This document shows, in pieces, positions 35-7,158 of a DNA stretch of 64,000 nt (within the stretch, counting starts at the first letter, position 1; the number at the start of each line of letters is the position of its first letter). The DNA comes from Paeniglutamicibacter sulfureus (GTDB lineage: Bacteria; Actinomycetota; Actinomycetes; Actinomycetales; Micrococcaceae). Location of the stretch: assembly GCF_030512175.1 (NCBI RefSeq), contig NZ_JAULBL010000001.1, positions 1,092,510 through 1,156,509 of the forward strand. Direction: 5' to 3'. The position numbers and the translations under genes were made by a program. Under the pieces are notes generated by a model. The model was not told the DNA's origin. It did not search any database and saw nothing but the letters and a program-made list of their open reading frames with translations.

Positions 35-658
35 TTAGATGCTGCCCGTGGCCATGTCGATGTCCAGGCGCGGCAGGCGGTCGAACCAAGCGTTTTCGCC
101 GGGGGTGCCCACGTTGACGATCAGGAAGGCGTGGTTGGCGGTTTCGGCGTTGACGACGGTGTCCACGCCGGCGGCGTTAAAGCCACCCATGGGTCCGGCA
201 TGCAGGCCGGCAGCACGGACGGCCATGATGAAGTAGCCTGCCTGCATCCAGGCGTTGTTCTTGGCGATCTCGGCACGCATGGCGGCATCGTCCTCAAACA
301 TTGCCTTCCGCTCCGCCGCGTGGGGGAAGAAGACGGGGAACTGCTCGTGCCAGTTGGCATCGTAGCTCAACACAGCCAGCGCCGGGGCGGCCAGGGACTT
401 GGGTCGGTTCGCTTCCATCATCTGGGCAACAACTGCCTCGCGGGCCTCTGCACTCTTGACCCAAGTGATGCGCAACGGCTGGTTGTTCATCATCGTCGGA
501 CCCATTTTGGTGAGCTCGTAGATGGCTTCCAGGGTCTGGTCGGAGACGGCGTCGTCGGAGAAGGTGTTGGCAGTTCGCGCTTGAAGGAAAAGCTTGTCAG
601 CGGTATCTGCATCGATCGACAGCTGTTCGTACACGGTCGCGGCGGTTTCAACGCTCAT
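35..658 (-). CDS. Nitroreductase-family protein (RutE/HadB-like malonic semialdehyde reductase)
   Basis: The 207-residue product matches the nitroreductase fold family, most closely the RutE/HadB branch, which reduces 3-oxopropanoate-type aldehydes or quinones with NAD(P)H and FMN in the cytosol. Visible marks are the GPTMMNNQP segment near residue 55, which belongs to the flavin-binding loop of this branch, and the GLHAGPMGGF stretch near residue 155. Length is close to the family norm of about 195-200. The ATG at 658 follows an AAGGAG ribosome site about 11 bases away. It stands alone: no pyrimidine (rut) genes surround it, so malonic semialdehyde as substrate is a guess. A general quinone or nitro-compound reductase is the alternative. 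Confidence 0.85.
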   Translation of the reverse strand: MSVETAATVYEQLSIDADTADKLFLQARTANTFSDDAVSDQTLEAIYELTKMGPTMMNNQPLRITWVKSAEAREAVVAQMMEANRPKSLAAPALAVLSYDANWHEQFPVFFPHAAERKAMFEDDAAMRAEIAKNNAWMQAGYFIMAVRAAGLHAGPMGGFNAAGVDTVVNAETANHAFLIVNVGTPGENAWFDRLPRLDIDMATGSI

Positions 659-1087
659 GTGGGGGTGTGCTCCTTGCGGTTCAGCGGTAGTTTCCTACTA
701 AAGCAGAACCACCACTGTTGACCGCCACATTCCACCGGCATCCGTGATTCACGTCACCCGGAATGGCCAAGGGTTCGAGAACGGGACACTTTCGTGGTTA
801 AACATCAGCACGCCTGACGACGCCGATGGTAGCTACTCTTGGGGTAGTAGCGACCGGGAACCATGGTTATCAAATGCTCCTTGGGGGAAAGCATTTGACG
901 CGGTTCCCGATGCGGACCAACTTGGGGGCTTGGTCTGCGGGGCTGGCGTCGTCTGGCGTGCTGGAAATGAGTTCTCGAAGCGCCACTCGCAAAACGCTCT
1001 TCGTACTCATCAATCGGCTATACGGCCGATGTAGTACCTACTGTATCCAGCGTGGCAACCACAGCACATTAGACTTTTGACCATACT
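659..1087. other. Intergenic stretch, no gene recognised
   Basis: About 430 bases without a convincing gene. Short open frames exist but lack ribosome sites and family features. A CRP/GlxR-like half-palindrome, GTGA-N6-TCAC, lies at 744-757, about 90 bases upstream of the nitroreductase; it is the only regulatory-looking element I see and is weak evidence. Confidence 0.4.
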
Positions 1088-1106
1088 TAGTGAGGAAACC
1101 TCACTA
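1088..1106 (-). terminator. Hairpin at the end of the histidine kinase gene
   Basis: An 8-base perfect inverted repeat, TAGTGAGG and CCTCACTA, with a three-base loop overlaps the kinase stop codon. On the kinase strand the bases after it are A/T-rich but lack a clean U run, so a termination role is only probable. Confidence 0.4.
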
Positions 1107-2357
1107 TAAATCTTGGACCTCGGGTAGTTCCTCGGGCACCTGGTGGGCTCCATCTAGAATCTTGGCGGGCAGCTCGGCCCGAACCACCCAGTCACCTCGG
1201 ACGCCCTGGGCCGACAGAGTCCCGCCGAAGGCTGCCATGCGGTCGGCCATGCCCACGATGCCGGAGCTATGACCACCATTGTCAAAACCCTGGTCGATCA
1301 CCCGACCAGGCAGCTTGTTGGCGACTTCAAGCCAAACCCTGTCACCGACAATGAGGGCCTCAATGCGGCACGGCGCATCACGCTCGGCATGTTTGACGAT
1401 GTTCGTCGTGGATTCCTGCAACACCCGATATAACGCGGCTTGGGCCGACTGGGGCAGCCCGGCAAGCTTTGGGTCGGCCATGGTCTTGGTCGGGTGGCCG
1501 AGGTCAACCAATCGCTCGGCAAAGATCTCGACACCAATCAATATTTCCAGGCTGCTGGCCGCATTCCCCGCCTTGTCAACAATCGATCCGTCCAAACGCG
1601 TTGCCTGGCCGTCGGATCGAAGCACATTGAGCAGGACGCGCAGGTCCTGGAGCGCCTCCTTAGACGTAGCACCGATAACCTTGAGCGCGGCCTGGGCAAC
1701 CGCCGGATCGCCGGAAAAACCTGCAGCCTTGGCTTGCATGGAAATCACGGTGATGTCGTGGGCGACGATATCGTGAAGGTCCCTCGCAATGGCCTTGCGC
1801 TCCGCTTCAACAGCTTCCCGTTGTTTGCGTCGTAATTCTTCAATGCGCTCCCTGTCGGCTTCGCGCTGTTCCTGGAATTTCCGGACGAATATGGCGATGA
1901 AGTAAGCCGCCGCAACCAAAGGAATGATGATGATCAAGAAGCCCACGTCGTAGGATCTGACGACGATGATCAGGATCGGCCAAAGGCCCGTTATGCAGAG
2001 GTAGCGGAGCGAGAATTTGCGGGTCTCCGTCAGAGTAACCAAGCCGACGAGGAGGGGAATAATGAGGAGCGAGTACAAATATGCTCCGGTGAATGCTGCC
2101 AACGTCATTGCCACTATCGAAACGATGACCGCATATCGGGTACGCACCCACAGTAGTCCGAGCGCCAGAGCGAAGGTCGCATTAACAGCGACCGCTTTAG
2201 CAAAGGAGACAAACAGGGCAGGGTCAGTTTCGTTGAGAAGTGTCACAATGTCAGTGCCCAGCAGCAGTGCGACGAATCCACTGGCCACCAGAAGAATCTT
2301 CCTCCCAAGACTGGAGGAAGACTGCTCCTTGGCGGCGACAGTTATCGGAGAGTTCAT
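1104..2357 (-). CDS. Polytopic sensor histidine kinase, NarL/DesK type (HisKA_3)
   Basis: The 417-residue protein has about six hydrophobic membrane segments (residues ~20-160), a charged coiled linker (~160-190), a HisKA_3 dimerisation box with phosphoacceptor His195 in ARDLHDIVAH, and an HATPase_c domain (N-box near QESTTNIVKHA, G-box near GIVGMADRM). It should autophosphorylate and pass phosphate to the NarL-type regulator encoded divergently at 2724. It has no large extracellular sensor domain; the signal must be read by the membrane segments, as in kinases that sense membrane state or small peptides. The small secreted-peptide gene at 2413-2622 lies 55 bases upstream on the same strand, so the two are probably co-transcribed. 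Ligand unknown. Confidence 0.92.
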   Translation of the reverse strand: MNSPITVAAKEQSSSSLGRKILLVASGFVALLLGTDIVTLLNETDPALFVSFAKAVAVNATFALALGLLWVRTRYAVIVSIVAMTLAAFTGAYLYSLLIIPLLVGLVTLTETRKFSLRYLCITGLWPILIIVVRSYDVGFLIIIIPLVAAAYFIAIFVRKFQEQREADRERIEELRRKQREAVEAERKAIARDLHDIVAHDITVISMQAKAAGFSGDPAVAQAALKVIGATSKEALQDLRVLLNVLRSDGQATRLDGSIVDKAGNAASSLEILIGVEIFAERLVDLGHPTKTMADPKLAGLPQSAQAALYRVLQESTTNIVKHAERDAPCRIEALIVGDRVWLEVANKLPGRVIDQGFDNGGHSSGIVGMADRMAAFGGTLSAQGVRGDWVVRAELPAKILDGAHQVPEELPEVQDL

Positions 2358-2379
2358 TTCTCCATTCTCATCGAAATAA

Positions 2380-2399
2380 GGGCTCGCACAAATAAGCCC
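2380..2399 (-). terminator. Weak hairpin between peptide gene and kinase gene
   Basis: Read on the minus strand, GGGCT and AGCCC pair around a 10-base loop and are followed by TTATTT. A 5-bp stem is short for a full terminator; a leaky one would give more peptide than kinase mRNA. Structure is seen; function is inferred. Confidence 0.35.
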
Positions 2400-2412
2400 A
2401 GATCTTTAGGAG

Positions 2413-2622
2413 CTATGAACGGCAGCCGGCACCAAAGTATCGGCACAGCCAGTCATTGAAAGCCAGAGATGCGCCAGCGGTTTCAGCGACTGGCATTGAG
2501 CCACCTTGCGCCAGGGAACCCGGAACGGCAGCAGCCTGGGCAGGAATTGCAGCCGGCAGCAGCAAGGCGACGGACATGGTAACAGCAGCGAAGATACGAG
2601 TTTTACGATTCATGTTGCCCAT
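2413..2622 (-). CDS. Small secreted peptide with C-terminal two-cysteine loop (candidate signal peptide)
   Basis: A 69-residue product with a textbook Sec signal: basic start (NRKTR), hydrophobic core (residues 10-23) and an A-x-A cleavage region (AQA, residues 28-30). The predicted mature part, about 37-39 residues, is Gly/Ala-rich and ends in WLCRYFGAGCRS, with Cys60 and Cys67 able to close a small disulfide loop. The ATG at 2622 is preceded by AGGTG at 2628-2632 (minus strand), well spaced, which favours it over the ATG at 2613. It lies immediately upstream of the histidine kinase gene on the same strand and divergent from the response regulator. I recognise no family. A secreted peptide beside a polytopic kinase suggests a pheromone or kinase accessory ligand; a toxin or envelope peptide is possible. 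Confidence 0.7.
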   Translation of the reverse strand: MGNMNRKTRIFAAVTMSVALLLPAAIPAQAAAVPGSLAQGGSMPVAETAGASLAFNDWLCRYFGAGCRS

Positions 2623-2723
2623 TCTCGCACCTATTTCAGTAAGTCAACAGCTACATTCCCGAAAACTTTTGTTGCTCACCTGCAAGTCCCACAATTCCAC
2701 TCAGGGTCATTAGACTCGTAGTT

Positions 2724-3395
2724 GTGACCGACATCCAAGTTCTTGTGGTAGATAACGAACCACTCATGCGCCAAGCACTCAAAATCATTCTCGACGCAGC
2801 GCCAGGATTTCATTGGCTTGGAGAGGCAACAAACGGCATTGAGGCCGTGAATTTTTGTGCGGGCAACAGCCCGGACGTGATCCTCATGGACATGCAGATG
2901 CCGCGTATGGACGGTGTTGAGGCCACAGAAATTATCATCACGAATTACCCGGACATCGGCGTACTCGCCATAACCGCATTCTCCTCGGAAGAATACCTGG
3001 TCCCGGCTCTACGCGCCGGTGCTGCAGGATATCTGGTCAAGGACGCCGAGCCCATGGAAATCCTCGGCGCGATTCAGGCAGTGCACGACGGAAGCGCCGC
3101 CATTTCGGCATCGCTATCGCAGGATCTCATTCGCGCGGTTCGCGATGCTCACGGCATCAAACCAAGTAGTACGAGCAGACAAAGCCCCATGCCTTTGTCT
3201 GAGCGGGAACTAGAAGTCCTACAGTTGCTGGCTCGCGGCCGAAACAATCCAGAGATGGCTGCCGAGTTGCACATTTCCGAAGCCACCGTCAAAGCGCATC
3301 TAAGCCGTGTCATGGCAAAATTCGGTGTCCGGGACAGGGTCCAGACCTTGATCCGGGCTGCACAATTCGGACTTGTCGAGCTGCACATGGATTAG
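2724..3395 (+). CDS. NarL/FixJ-family response regulator (REC + LuxR HTH)
   Basis: The 223-residue cytosolic regulator has an N-terminal receiver domain with the acidic pair near residue 10, phosphoacceptor Asp56 in ILMDMQMP, a conserved Lys near residue 106 (GYLVKDAEP), and a C-terminal LuxR helix-turn-helix starting at LSERELEVL (~residue 160). It is the expected partner of the divergently encoded kinase at 1104-2357. The start is GTG; only a poor ribosome site precedes it, but a TAGACT hexamer at 2711-2716 sits seven bases upstream, as expected for a leaderless transcript. The 100-base gap to the peptide gene must hold both promoters and is the natural place for an autoregulatory binding site. 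Confidence 0.93.
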   Translation: MTDIQVLVVDNEPLMRQALKIILDAAPGFHWLGEATNGIEAVNFCAGNSPDVILMDMQMPRMDGVEATEIIITNYPDIGVLAITAFSSEEYLVPALRAGAAGYLVKDAEPMEILGAIQAVHDGSAAISASLSQDLIRAVRDAHGIKPSSTSRQSPMPLSERELEVLQLLARGRNNPEMAAELHISEATVKAHLSRVMAKFGVRDRVQTLIRAAQFGLVELHMD

Positions 3396-3602
3396 ACAAG
3401 GGCCTACGGTTGTTGCTCGGCAGATGTTGTCACGCCAACCCGGCGTCCTTGCCTCCAACGGATCGGGACGGGCACCGGTTTTGCACGATGAATAGGTGCC
3501 CATCCGGCCACCGGCGTCAGGCAGCGGGACCGGGCACATATAAAACTTGTACATTTTACTAATATGATCCCCATTTCATGGATTAGCATTCATTTGCAAA
3601 TT

Positions 3603-3620
3603 AGGTGGCAATAACCACCT
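3603..3620. promoter_or_regulatory. Inverted repeat upstream of BCCT transporter
   Basis: AGGTGG and CCACCT (perfect 6-bp arms, loop CAATAA) lie just before the putative -35 element of the transporter gene, a position suited to an operator or to the last hairpin of the upstream transcript. Confidence 0.35.
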
Positions 3621-3623
3621 TTC

Positions 3624-3654
3624 TTGCTAGGGTCCCCCCTGCATCGCCTAGGCT
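3624..3654 (+). promoter_or_regulatory. Candidate promoter of BCCT transporter, leaderless start
   Basis: TTGCTA (3624-3629) and TAGGCT (3649-3654) are separated by 19 bases. The ATG at 3661 begins seven bases after the -10 hexamer and has no Shine-Dalgarno sequence, so transcription probably starts at the initiation codon. Confidence 0.45.
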
Positions 3655-3660
3655 CGAAAA

Positions 3661-5442
3661 ATGACAACTGAACTGACGAAGGCGCGCGCCCAGCCACGCG
3701 TACACCGATGGGTTTTCTGGCCCGCGGCCATCATCATCATTGTTTTTGCCACGTTTGCCATGACCATGCCAAGCACTGCCGAGGCACTCTTCGCGTCCGT
3801 CCAGTCGCAGATCATCGGCTACTTCAATTGGTACTACGTCCTTATTGCCACGGGATTTGTGGTGTTCAGCCTGTGGCTGGGATTCGGCAAATTTGGCGAA
3901 ATCAAGCTCGGCAAGGACGAAGACGAACCGGAGTTCTCCCTCGGTTCGTGGTTCTCGCTGCTCTTCGCCGCCGGCATGGGCATCGGCCTGGTCTTCTATG
4001 GCGTCTCCGAGCCGCTGAGCCACTTTGCCTCTCCCAAGCCCGGCGCCTCGGGATCGCCTGGCGAGCTTGCCCAACAGGCGCAGGCGCAAACCTTCCTGCA
4101 TTGGGGGGTGCATGCCTGGTCGATCTACGTAGTTATCGGGTTGGCCCTCGCCTACGCCATTCACCGCCGTGGCCGACCCATATCGATTCGGTGGACACTC
4201 GAGCCACTGCTGGGGCGCAAGGTCCATGGCGGACTTGGAAACCTCATCGACGTTGTTGCGTTGGTTGGCACGATCTTTGGTGTGGCGACCTCTTTGGGAT
4301 TGGGCGTCTTGCAAATCAGTGCAGGACTGGAAAGCGCCGGACTGGTTCAGGCTTCCCAATTCATCGATCTCGTCATCATTGCAGTCGTCACCGCGTTGGT
4401 GCTCTTCTCCGTTCTTTCGGGCGTCGGCAAGGGCATGAAGTGGCTCTCGAACACCAACTTGATCCTGGCAGGCGTGATGGTCGTCTTCCTCTTGATTGTT
4501 GGCCCCACGCAATTCCTGCTCAGAAACTTCGTACAGTCCGTGGGCAATTACCTGCAGAACTTCCTTGCAATGTCGTTCAACGTCAGTGCCTTCACCGGGG
4601 CCGAGGGCGAGGTCTGGCAGGGCACTTGGACCACGTTCTACTGGGGCTGGTGGATTTCGTGGGCGCCGTTCGTGGGAATCTTCATTGCCCGGATTTCTCG
4701 CGGTCGCACGGTACGCCAATTCGTTGCAGGTGTCATTTTGGTTCCCACCATTGTCACGATGATGTGGTTCTCGGTCCTGGGTGGAATCGCCTTGCACGGA
4801 CAGCTGGAGGGAACGGGCAACCTCATCGCCCCGGACCGCTCGATTGACACCGAGGGCGCCTTGTTTGCCATGCTCGACCAATTGCCTGCCGGCTCTGTAC
4901 TAACGGTGGGTGCGATCATCATGATTGTCATCTTCTTCGTTACATCGGCTGACTCGGGCGCGCTGGTCATGGGCATGATTGCCACCGGCGGGGACGTGGA
5001 GCCCAAGAACTGGATCCGAATCTTCTTCACGCTGGCAACTTCGATCCTGGCCGCTTCCCTCTTGCTCTCGGGCGGCCTTGAGGCACTCAAGACAGCGGCG
5101 ATCATCATTGCCCTGCCGTTCAGCATCGTCCTGATCTTGATCTGTTGGTCGACGTATCGGGCATTTTCACGTGAAGTGAAGGTATATGAAAAGGCACGGC
5201 GCATGGCGTTCGTCGACCACATCGGCGATTTCTATGGTCTGGAAGTCGAAGCCCCGAACCAGGATTCGCAGTTGATCAATCTCCAGAACTTCACTGCACG
5301 GCTGCGGCGGTCAGTTCCGCTGGCACGCCGAGGCCATGTGCCGGCGGCTTCGGGCAGGGTTCGCTTGGAAGCTGACAACCATCGAGACGCACCGGAAACC
5401 GAAGGCAGCGACTCCGGCCAGCCACCGCAGGCCACGAGCTAG
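3661..5442 (+). CDS. BCCT-family glycine betaine/choline/carnitine transporter (BetP/OpuD-like)
   Basis: The 593-residue membrane protein has about 12 transmembrane segments with the BCCT hallmarks: the glycine-rich AAGMGIGLVFYGVSEP segment (near residue 105), the aromatic FYWGWWISWAPFVG signature of TM8 (near residue 325) and the FFVTSADSGA stretch near residue 425. Members import betaine-type quaternary ammonium compounds by Na+ or H+ symport during osmotic stress. Hydrophilic tails on both ends resemble osmo-regulated BetP-type carriers, although the C-terminal tail here is Pro/Ala/Asp-rich, unlike the basic helix of BetP. It stands alone between a leaderless-type promoter and a strong bidirectional terminator. 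Substrate cannot be fixed from sequence. Confidence 0.93.
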   Translation: MTTELTKARAQPRVHRWVFWPAAIIIIVFATFAMTMPSTAEALFASVQSQIIGYFNWYYVLIATGFVVFSLWLGFGKFGEIKLGKDEDEPEFSLGSWFSLLFAAGMGIGLVFYGVSEPLSHFASPKPGASGSPGELAQQAQAQTFLHWGVHAWSIYVVIGLALAYAIHRRGRPISIRWTLEPLLGRKVHGGLGNLIDVVALVGTIFGVATSLGLGVLQISAGLESAGLVQASQFIDLVIIAVVTALVLFSVLSGVGKGMKWLSNTNLILAGVMVVFLLIVGPTQFLLRNFVQSVGNYLQNFLAMSFNVSAFTGAEGEVWQGTWTTFYWGWWISWAPFVGIFIARISRGRTVRQFVAGVILVPTIVTMMWFSVLGGIALHGQLEGTGNLIAPDRSIDTEGALFAMLDQLPAGSVLTVGAIIMIVIFFVTSADSGALVMGMIATGGDVEPKNWIRIFFTLATSILAASLLLSGGLEALKTAAIIIALPFSIVLILICWSTYRAFSREVKVYEKARRMAFVDHIGDFYGLEVEAPNQDSQLINLQNFTARLRRSVPLARRGHVPAASGRVRLEADNHRDAPETEGSDSGQPPQATS

Positions 5443-5461
5443 CCGAATCTACATCGCAAAA

Positions 5462-5506
5462 TCGAGGTGTTGGGTTACCGTCATGTACGGGAACCCAACA
5501 CCTCGA
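5462..5506. terminator. Bidirectional intrinsic terminator
   Basis: A perfect 15-bp inverted repeat (arms 5462-5476 and 5492-5506), extended inside by CCGT/ACGG, sits between the converging BCCT carrier and APC permease genes. The 180 bases between it and the permease stop contain no gene I can support. Confidence 0.75.
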
Positions 5507-5686
5507 ATGCGTTTCGATCAATGTTGCCTGCTGGCGTCGACAAATAGGTGCCGGACTCCACGGCGGTGTTTTGCTGCCCGGTTGGCCGGCACCGATTCGG
5601 ATCCAAGTCGTGGAAGACAACGATGTGCGGCACCATCCGCGTTCCGCATGTGGTGATCAGTCGGAACTTGTTGCCGGGCTGGACGA

Positions 5687-6961
5687 TCAATGGTCCACGT
5701 TGTATCCGTCAGCCCCGAAGCGCAGGCGAATGGCACGGTAGCCCAGGCCCACGGCGAACATCGCCAGTCCACCGACGACGGCGCTGGGTGGCAGCGTGGC
5801 AACAAACACGGCGCACCCAATGGCACCCGCGACTCCCAACCACGCGGGGCTCAGGCGCTCGTCCCGCGGCTGTTTGAACGCCGCGATGTTGGCGATTAGG
5901 TAGTAGACGAGCACTCCGAACGACGAGAACCCGATGGCGGTCCGCAGGTCGAAGAACATGATCAGCAAAACCACTGCCACGCCAACCGTCAGCTCGGCGC
6001 GATGCGGCGTTGAAAAGCGCGGGTGGATGGCGGCCAAGGGATGGGGAAGATCGCGTTCCCGTGCCATGGCCATGGCCGTGCGTCCAATGCCTGCAATCAA
6101 AGCAAGAAGCGCCCCAAGGGATGCAAGGGCCGCGGCTATTTGCACCAGCGGCAAGGCCCATGAATCCCCCAGCGCGGTGACCAAAGGCTTGGCGCTTTGG
6201 GCAATACCTCCGGCACCCAGAACATTCAGGAGCACCACGGCGACCACCGCATAGAGAACTACGACGATGCCCAGGCCAATCCCGATGGCACGGGGAATGC
6301 TCTTGGTCGGGTTTCGTACTTCTTCGCCCAGGGTCGCGATGCGTGCATATCCAGCGAAGGCAAAGAACAGTAGCCCGGCCCCCTGCAAGATACCCAGAGC
6401 GCTGGCATTCTCCCCTGCCGCGTGGGCCGGCGGCGCATGGGTGCCGGTAAGGATCACGACCAGAACCACGGCAAGGAGCGCCAATACCGCGATGACGATG
6501 ATGCGTGCTGCGGCCGCTGTTCGTGTAACTCCCAGATAGTTGACGCCGACCAGCAACGCCACCGCCAGAACAGCGACGGGCTTCACCCAGGCTTCGGGAA
6601 CCGTGTAAGTTGCGAAGGTCAGTGCCATTGCCGCTGCCGAAGCCGTCTTGCCGACCACGAAGCCCCATCCGGCGATAAAGCCCGGCCACGGGCCAAGCAC
6701 CTCACGCCCATAAGCATAAGTACCTCCGGACGTCGGGTACCGAGCCGCGAGTTGGGCGCTGGAGCGTGCATTTGCATACGCCAACGCGGCCGCCAAAAAC
6801 AGGGACACCAGAAGTGCGGAACCGGCCGCGGACGCCGCAGGTGTGAACGCGGAAAAAATTCCGGCGCCAATCATGGCACCCAAACCGATCATCACTGCCG
6901 CCTGGGTACCCAATTGACGTTTGAGGCCAGGGCCCACTTCTTCTCCGCTCAAGCTTCGCAT
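5687..6961 (-). CDS. APC-superfamily amino acid permease
   Basis: About 424 residues forming some 12 transmembrane helices. The N-terminal GLGAMIGAGIFSAF (residues ~25-38) is the substrate-binding TM1 motif of the APC superfamily, and GGTYAYGREVLGPWPGF marks TM3. Members are proton-coupled amino acid or amine carriers of the plasma membrane. The ATG at 6961 is chosen over an upstream in-frame TTG at 6970. No ribosome site is obvious, and a TAGTAC hexamer lies close upstream, so the mRNA may be leaderless. It is not in an operon, faces the BCCT gene across a terminator, and its substrate is unknown. Confidence 0.88.
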   Translation of the reverse strand: MRSLSGEEVGPGLKRQLGTQAAVMIGLGAMIGAGIFSAFTPAASAAGSALLVSLFLAAALAYANARSSAQLAARYPTSGGTYAYGREVLGPWPGFIAGWGFVVGKTASAAAMALTFATYTVPEAWVKPVAVLAVALLVGVNYLGVTRTAAAARIIVIAVLALLAVVLVVILTGTHAPPAHAAGENASALGILQGAGLLFFAFAGYARIATLGEEVRNPTKSIPRAIGIGLGIVVVLYAVVAVVLLNVLGAGGIAQSAKPLVTALGDSWALPLVQIAAALASLGALLALIAGIGRTAMAMARERDLPHPLAAIHPRFSTPHRAELTVGVAVVLLIMFFDLRTAIGFSSFGVLVYYLIANIAAFKQPRDERLSPAWLGVAGAIGCAVFVATLPPSAVVGGLAMFAVGLGYRAIRLRFGADGYNVDH

Positions 6962-7158
6962 TCCCAACAAGTACTACATTGAGATTAACGTTTGGTGGCG
7001 CACCAACATCGAGGGACGCGCCCTCAGTCGCCTTTTCACTTCGCGCATGCGCTCCCACGCCATAACCCCACGGATCGACATTGGTCTGGGAACGACCTTT
7101 GCAGGTTCGCCTAAGCTCAAAGAGGATTGCTGGATACGCGCAAGAATCGGGGACTCGC

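Follow-up and report, generated by a model that had tools for sequence, protein, structure and literature searches.

What is a short open reading frame (ORF) with an apparent secretion signal and a pair of cysteines doing directly before the gene of a membrane-bound histidine kinase, with a response regulator gene running the other way? The question arises near the start of a 64,000-nucleotide (nt) stretch of Paeniglutamicibacter sulfureus DNA (contig NZ_JAULBL010000001.1; the window in what follows), for which a preliminary description had proposed a peptide pheromone system. Its gene arrangement was found again, with all three ORFs and the 55-nt gap between peptide and kinase genes (2358-2412) in place; only the peptide is likely to have 66 rather than 69 residues, because the start at 2613 is conserved and the ATG at 2622, whose Met is missing in several congeners, is not. 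From the sequence comparisons the best reading, which we hold with a probability of about 0.6, is that a secreted and probably disulfide-closed peptide is sensed by the adjacent ComP-like kinase. The peptide would be exported through its Sec signal and cut after AQA; once outside, its C-terminal tail would form a ring through the two cysteines. The membrane domain of the neighbouring HisKA_3 kinase would sense this tail, and the kinase would phosphorylate the divergent NarL-type regulator. The outcome would be signalling comparable to ComX-ComP-ComA, autocrine or at population level, but based on another peptide chemistry; binding could activate or repress the pathway, and the regulon might include the module itself.

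There is good support for a functional pairing of peptide and kinase, as the two genes stand together in every peptide locus analysed, the kinases concerned fall into one clade, tail and kinase membrane domain diverge together in one of two genera tested, and the tail is conserved next to a drifting linker. This pairing is real and extends beyond the genus, so that this part of the preliminary description held and the family proved wider than could be seen from a single sequence.

Conservation of the peptide beside its kinase

The earlier proposal depended on the frame and its Cys-loop tail being kept beside the same kinase in relatives. Each of the 15 genomes of the genus encodes the peptide (E 1e-41 to 1e-8; G000 and G013, whose peptides are identical, belong to one species), with the gene order retained and the same kinase adjacent, and neither a missing frame nor a drifting tail was found beside the orthologous kinases. 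Every one of the 13 congeneric sequences aligned retains the AxA motif at the end of the signal. Invariant columns of the tail include G, A, N, D, W, C, R, G, A and C, with a consensus of approximately GxSDAFNDW[VLM]CR[NY][LF]GA[LAG]C, and the linker varies in length as well as in sequence. Over 14 sequences pN/pS is 0.130/0.506 for the signal, 0.322/0.702 for the linker and 0.116/0.749 for the tail, where pN and pS are reported instead of dN/dS because the synonymous sites are saturated (pS 0.75); all parts of the peptide are constrained, the linker least.

Searching 395 Micrococcaceae genomes with a full-length profile gave 35 matched genomes at E 0.001, of which 30 were counted as true (15 from the genus and 15 others); the five dropped comprise two long unrelated ORFs (L060, L061; L, G and f numbers are our handles for loci, genomes and families) and three that matched only part of the profile. 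With a tail-only profile 20 matches below E 1e-8 were obtained from 158 genomes. Four further candidates came up, of which G147 (E 1e-5) and G057 (E 0.015), the latter accepted partly on the strength of its genomic context, were counted, and G133 and G028 were not confirmed when their loci were inspected. A HisKA_3 kinase follows the peptide on the same strand in 34 of 34 loci analysed, a count that includes G057 with its partly context-based acceptance, at a gap of -10 to 125 nt, the negative values stemming from the choice of start codon. The response regulator lies on the opposite strand in 33 of the 34 loci by pattern, and in G002, the exception, its C-terminal sequence was seen. The surroundings of the module vary between genera. 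Trp is invariant in the 20 tails of alignment A3, but the peptides of G147, Kocuria and several further loci lack it.

As a control we considered the 13 places in the own genome that resemble HisKA_3 (12 over the Pfam cut-off). Only the window kinase has an upstream ORF with signal and Cys pair. Since some of these loci had held little upstream sequence, the other 12 were rechecked with at least 391 nt each, again without a single case of signal plus Cys pair (0/12); Cys-pair ORFs without a signal precede four of them. The upstream peptide ORF is more than chance.

Among the Paeniglutamicibacter kinases, on average 44% of positions differ in the membrane domain and 20% in the catalytic part. 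A partial Mantel test of tail against membrane domain given the catalytic domain yielded r 0.56 and p 0.0005 for 14 genomes, with a permutation that corrects only partly for kinship. Such co-divergence would fit a ligand and its receptor, and equally an accessory membrane subunit.

One kinase clade within and beyond the family

Outside the Micrococcaceae the search with the peptide itself failed. The full-length profile was run on 396 genomes of the order, where beyond a few Micrococcaceae the matches end before the tail or sit in long frames (judged from the match listing), and the tail profile, run on 297 order genomes, found only two Micrococcaceae below E 0.01 and none outside that family. 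The kinase was therefore taken as the search anchor. A profile derived from Micrococcaceae kinases alone (A4) retrieved nine kinases of other families at E 1e-50, and six of these have by reading a Cys-tail ORF upstream at the same distance (five by an automatic rule with a loop limit of 8), the ORFs having been viewed only after the kinases were chosen. Compared with the 0/12 of the other own-genome kinases this corresponds to Fisher p 0.0015 (0.006 for the automatic count). The tails read GRWACKRLGLFC (L186), LNCFFFKRC (L187), LMCVVLKKRC (L189), ALCDLIPELCPPHLR (L191), TALCKLLRACS without a signal (L195) and LACQVLGDFFEKC with nine residues between the Cys (L197). The three kinases without such an ORF are L193, L194 and L196. 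At the place of the peptide L193 and L194 (family f19, genus g59) have a short cysteine-free ORF, MGIFYVFGKMIGIFR and MGIFYIFGKMIGIFR, perhaps a Cys-free variant of the peptide.

A pattern scan with A4 gave at least 80 named kinase loci. Seven have signal and Cys pair by the automatic test (L198-L201, L203, L204, L205), and two were added by reading, Kocuria marina L207 with VICHYWPVLCPNR and Microbacterium sp. L217 with MSGIWSYMCQVMGICS, the latter without a signal. Signal and Cys pair do not occur together before any of the other 71, most of which are Streptomyces or other distant HisKA_3 kinases; frames were read by eye among the named loci only for L202, L217, L260, L271 and L274. Any Cys tail in a wide window was listed for 14 of the 80 named loci, including some Cys-pair ORFs without a signal. 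In two Nesterenkonia loci of this set (L203, L204) the loop is longer, C-x8-C, in FFCAAFPRSSSC and VICRAFPSAQGC, which have a hydrophobic N-terminus and no clear cleavage site.

Four more families were searched with a further kinase profile, A5, some of whose seeds were positives, and the best 30 loci of each were taken (120 in total). Positive were L280, L283, L309, L313, L369, L370 and L371, together with L398 and L399 from loci fetched by place. The forms from family f19, MSPLNPFGIGPLISTMVASNADLGDWLCKMLGICA and MFSGTKIIAPLQLSFFEWLCQMFGICS, have no signal; to judge from the size of the family and its resemblance to the Microbacterium locus, f19 may be the Microbacteriaceae. Two genomes of family f3, G651 (L189 with L401) and G740 (L280 with L398), contain two clade kinases each, with LMCVVLKKRC and LACQVLGDFFEKC as tails; these are possible paralogous signal pairs in one cell.

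In a FastTree phylogeny of 249 catalytic domains, which leaves out the membrane domain, all 53 positives by read labels lie in one clade of 66. The presence of the ORF changes 7 times along this tree with the read labels, as against at least 41 in 1000 shuffles, and 12 times with the automatic labels, as against at least 40. Outside the Micrococcaceae the ORF was found before 16 of the 24 clade kinases by reading (15 automatic) and before none of the 172 others (3 automatic; Fisher p 9e-14 from the automatic counts); these 196 kinases include one from the Micrococcaceae, the negative Sinomonas L271. The read labels differ from the automatic ones in that L216, L347, L377 and L281 were turned negative and G067, L205, L207, L197 and L398 positive; L281 and L284 have ambiguous Cys-pair ORFs and were scored negative, and G040 is an automatic positive through an ORF other than its true peptide. 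In a quick IQ-TREE tree of 99 rows one split sets apart 46, with all 37 positives among them. When the Micrococcaceae tail profile was compared with 489 short ORFs located before 252 kinases, the top-ranked matches outside the family were L371 (E 6e-5), L370 (4e-4), L369 (0.022) and L186 (0.023), all of them in the clade, and on the opposite strand of the same regions nothing fell below E 0.7.

Several results weigh against the proposed signalling. Eight of the 24 clade kinases outside the Micrococcaceae have by reading no Cys-tail ORF, and none was found at L185, L188, L190, L192 or L202, the last from Nesterenkonia ebinurensis, of whose genus two other members have one. Support for the clade ranges from moderate (88, FastTree) to weak (SH-aLRT 59, IQ-TREE), and the clade was drawn round the positives after the labels were known, from a set that A5 had partly seeded with them; the A4 set is a test free of both biases. 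The tail profile scored L283 (E 1), L399 (4.9) and L189 (5.4) at the noise level of ORFs from outside the clade, and the remaining outside peptides are not among the matches listed, so that for the unrecovered ones the link consists of position, Cys pair and kinase clade. In Glutamicibacter (14 genomes) the co-divergence is not significant (r 0.21, p 0.07). The forms in f19 and Microbacterium have no signal sequence and would therefore need another export route. Finally, a Pfam scan of six window proteins (35-6970) recognised a nitroreductase family protein, the kinase, the regulator, a BCCT transporter and an amino acid permease, left the peptide unmatched, and revealed no processing or export gene beside the window copy.

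Because most outside tails were missed by the tail profile, we slightly lowered the probability of the secreted-signal reading, and likewise that of its extension to the order. The latter would make one Micrococcales kinase clade (Micrococcaceae, Microbacterium, f3, f11, f13, f19) the receptors of an undescribed class of actinobacterial peptide pheromones, each kinase paired with a hypervariable Cys-loop peptide of its own. The peptide would be exported by Sec in Micrococcaceae and reduced to a leaderless form of about 16-36 residues in Microbacterium and f19, and tails and receptors would co-evolve into private specificities. We put this wider proposal at somewhat below even odds.

Alternative explanations and known systems

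The main alternative to a secreted signal is kinase modulation at the membrane in the manner of MgrB, in which the small protein would stay at the producer's membrane and inhibit the kinase; its disulfide would serve as redox input, and there would be no diffusible signal. MgrB is likewise a small protein that acts on a sensor kinase (PhoQ) and has an extracytoplasmic Cys pair, and PMC10576120 describes this pair (C28-C39) and its contact with PhoQ. The window peptide shares the small size, a single N-terminal hydrophobic segment, two conserved and presumably extracytoplasmic Cys and a kinase partner, and the co-divergence with the kinase membrane domain would suit this explanation too. We nevertheless regard it as unlikely, since MgrB is bitopic whereas the N-terminus here ends in a conserved AxA site of the signal-peptidase type, and since the linker, like that of a processed precursor, is conserved neither in length nor in sequence. 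The kinase also belongs to another class than PhoQ. Clearly less probable is a three-component envelope sensor, whose secreted Cys tail would probe redox state or membrane damage on behalf of the kinase. The catalytic part of the kinase does resemble DesK, a sensor of membrane state that is nearest in sequence among solved kinases (E 1.6e-18, over profile positions 162-384 only) and for which we know of no peptide partner; the Cys pair is moreover invariant, as is Trp in most Micrococcaceae members. However, from family to family the peptide ORF keeps its place and the residues enclosed by the Cys change strongly, which looks more like ligand diversification than like a redox switch.

Little credit is due to a bacteriocin-like peptide whose production is governed by the adjacent two-component system, which we rate marginally below the envelope sensor. 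A small, Cys-containing, probably secreted product would agree with it, and 4 of 16 members show weak matches to the NCBIfam model lactococcin_972. Yet the two matches examined singly cover residues 1-50 and 1-45 and not the tail, and their scores for TIGR01653 (16.0 and 14.3 bits, two matching of four members scanned singly) are far from the cut-off of 32.1; the peptide is tied to one kinase clade and co-diverges with its kinase, and beside the window copy no immunity or transporter gene was recognised except the BCCT transporter and amino acid permease. Other weak NCBIfam matches (DegQ, UrcA) are, like lactococcin_972, below cut-off, a single PHROGs match at E 0.17 was disregarded, and plasmid and phage collections gave no match at E 1. 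The lowest probability we assign to a leader ORF or attenuator of kinase expression with a functionless peptide, or to a chance ORF. It could account for the hairpin directly after the stop codon and for the very short ORFs in f19 and Microbacterium, and is opposed by the amino-acid conservation in the face of saturated synonymous change, by a signal and tail kept throughout the 15 genomes, and by the likeness of some tails at profile level across families.

For the preferred reading, a secreted peptide sensed by its neighbouring kinase, the closest analogue in working is ComX-ComP-ComA, ComA being a NarL-type regulator; judged by this analogy the window module probably works like a ComX-type pair. 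Both have a small precursor, a polytopic HisKA_3 kinase and a peptide gene directly before the kinase gene. According to PMC4008528, ComX precursors are variable, 52-73 residues long and have a Trp near the C-terminus, and ComP is polytopic, belongs to PF07730/HisKA_3 and has a variable membrane domain. The window module is not a ComX family member and does not belong to ComQXPA, since no ComQ prenyltransferase was recognised beside the window copy in the Pfam scan, no match to ComX (PF05952) was found among 16 peptides at E 0.5, and the regulator is divergent instead of four genes lying on one strand; the Sec-type signal and the Cys pair are further differences. The preliminary description had set the HisKA_3 class apart from the AgrC/ComD class of pheromone receptors. 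The class is confirmed (Pfam E 3.6e-17) and does separate this kinase from AgrC and ComD, but the contrast is incomplete because ComP is also a HisKA_3 kinase. Agr has in common a Cys-containing small peptide beside a polytopic kinase and differs from our module with its HisKA_3 kinase, NarL-type regulator and Sec-type signal; no AgrB was recognised among the window neighbours by Pfam. ComC/BlpC with ComD/BlpH, where the peptide gene also adjoins that of a polytopic kinase, have another kinase class; reading of alignments A1 and A2 gave no double-glycine leader here, and no dedicated exporter was recognised beside the window copy.

In Firmicutes quorum sensing by peptides is well established. 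For actinobacteria a 2016 review puts the genera with reported quorum sensing at 25 of 342, with experiments for nine of these (PMC4748050). No such peptide was found described for these genera among the listed titles and abstract beginnings of open-access PMC articles, subscription papers and preprints lying outside the search. The module appears to be a peptide signalling system not yet described, from a group with hardly any known signals of this type. The pair is fixed across a genus of common soil actinobacteria and comes with many natural tail variants; if the reading is true, peptide signalling in Actinomycetota would become directly testable with synthetic peptides and a reporter, and there would be a class of ComP-like receptors using a Cys loop in place of a prenylated Trp.

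Layout and surroundings of the locus

Features of the peptide-kinase-regulator locus, in window positions
Feature	Position	Strand	Remarks
Peptide ORF as listed	2413-2622	minus	69 aa, from ATG at 2622; reads MGNMNRKTRIFAAVTMSVALLLPAAIPAQAAAVPGSLAQGGSMPVAETAGASLAFNDWLCRYFGAGCRS
Peptide gene, likeliest start	2413..2613	minus	66 aa; found in 15/15 genomes of the genus
Sec-type signal sequence ending AQA/A	2533..2613	minus	by reading; predicted cleavage site; AxA kept in the alignment
Conserved C-terminal tail GASLAFNDWLCRYFGAGCRS	2416..2475	minus	invariant columns and low pN
C-x6-C loop CRYFGAGC	2422..2445	minus	both Cys invariant in alignments A1-A3
Hairpin, peptide stop to kinase start	2380..2399	minus	terminator-like in the window; stem covaries in 13 congeners
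Polytopic HisKA_3 histidine kinase, presumed receptor	1104..2357	minus	ORF and Pfam; catalytic part resembles DesK
NarL/LuxR-type response regulator, divergent	2724..3395	plus	ORF and Pfam
Divergent promoter region (putative)	2614..2723		TTGACT 2642-2647 on the peptide side, TAGACT 2711-2716 on the regulator side; alignment of 13 intergenic regions

Between peptide and kinase genes, 85% of the hairpin cells pair in 13 Paeniglutamicibacter sequences, and 9 of 11 pairs show double changes. The five measures applied were never equalled in 500 shuffles (0/500) or by sliding, for a structure that was predicted on the same alignment as tested, which favours it. The copy in the window has a short, weak stem (z -1.0) followed by TTATTT, and in Glutamicibacter a stem occupies that place in some loci and none stands out in others. 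The hairpin may raise the level of peptide mRNA over that of kinase mRNA. No Rfam family was found in 900-3700.

In the divergent region TTGAC is conserved towards the peptide gene, as is TAGACT 7 nt ahead of the regulator's GTG, a placement which suggests near-leaderless mRNAs. The conserved TTGACT and TAGACT boxes might act as promoter elements; a generic promoter scan gave no sigma-70 match in this region.

The kinase had been described as having six helices and no extracellular domain. Its N-terminal half is hydrophobic and no extracellular domain is visible, in agreement with a polytopic protein; six helices are plausible, and a crude hydropathy scan leaves the count unsettled. Downstream of the kinase follows a gene for malonic semialdehyde reductase (35-658, minus strand; NCBIfam, over its cut-off), and in several Glutamicibacter loci a reductase-like gene, by reading, likewise lies downstream of the kinase. 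The BCCT transporter and amino acid permease genes are located beyond the regulator, at the other side of the locus.

The NarL-type assignment of the divergent regulator stands, with Response_reg and GerE recognised by Pfam. Its receiver domain reads VDNE in the genus of the window and VDDE in Glutamicibacter, the second of the two usual acidic residues being replaced by Asn. This Asn was seen by pattern in 12 congeneric rows (among them G013, the species of the window) and by reading in two more, and the presumed phospho-accepting Asp is retained despite VDNE.
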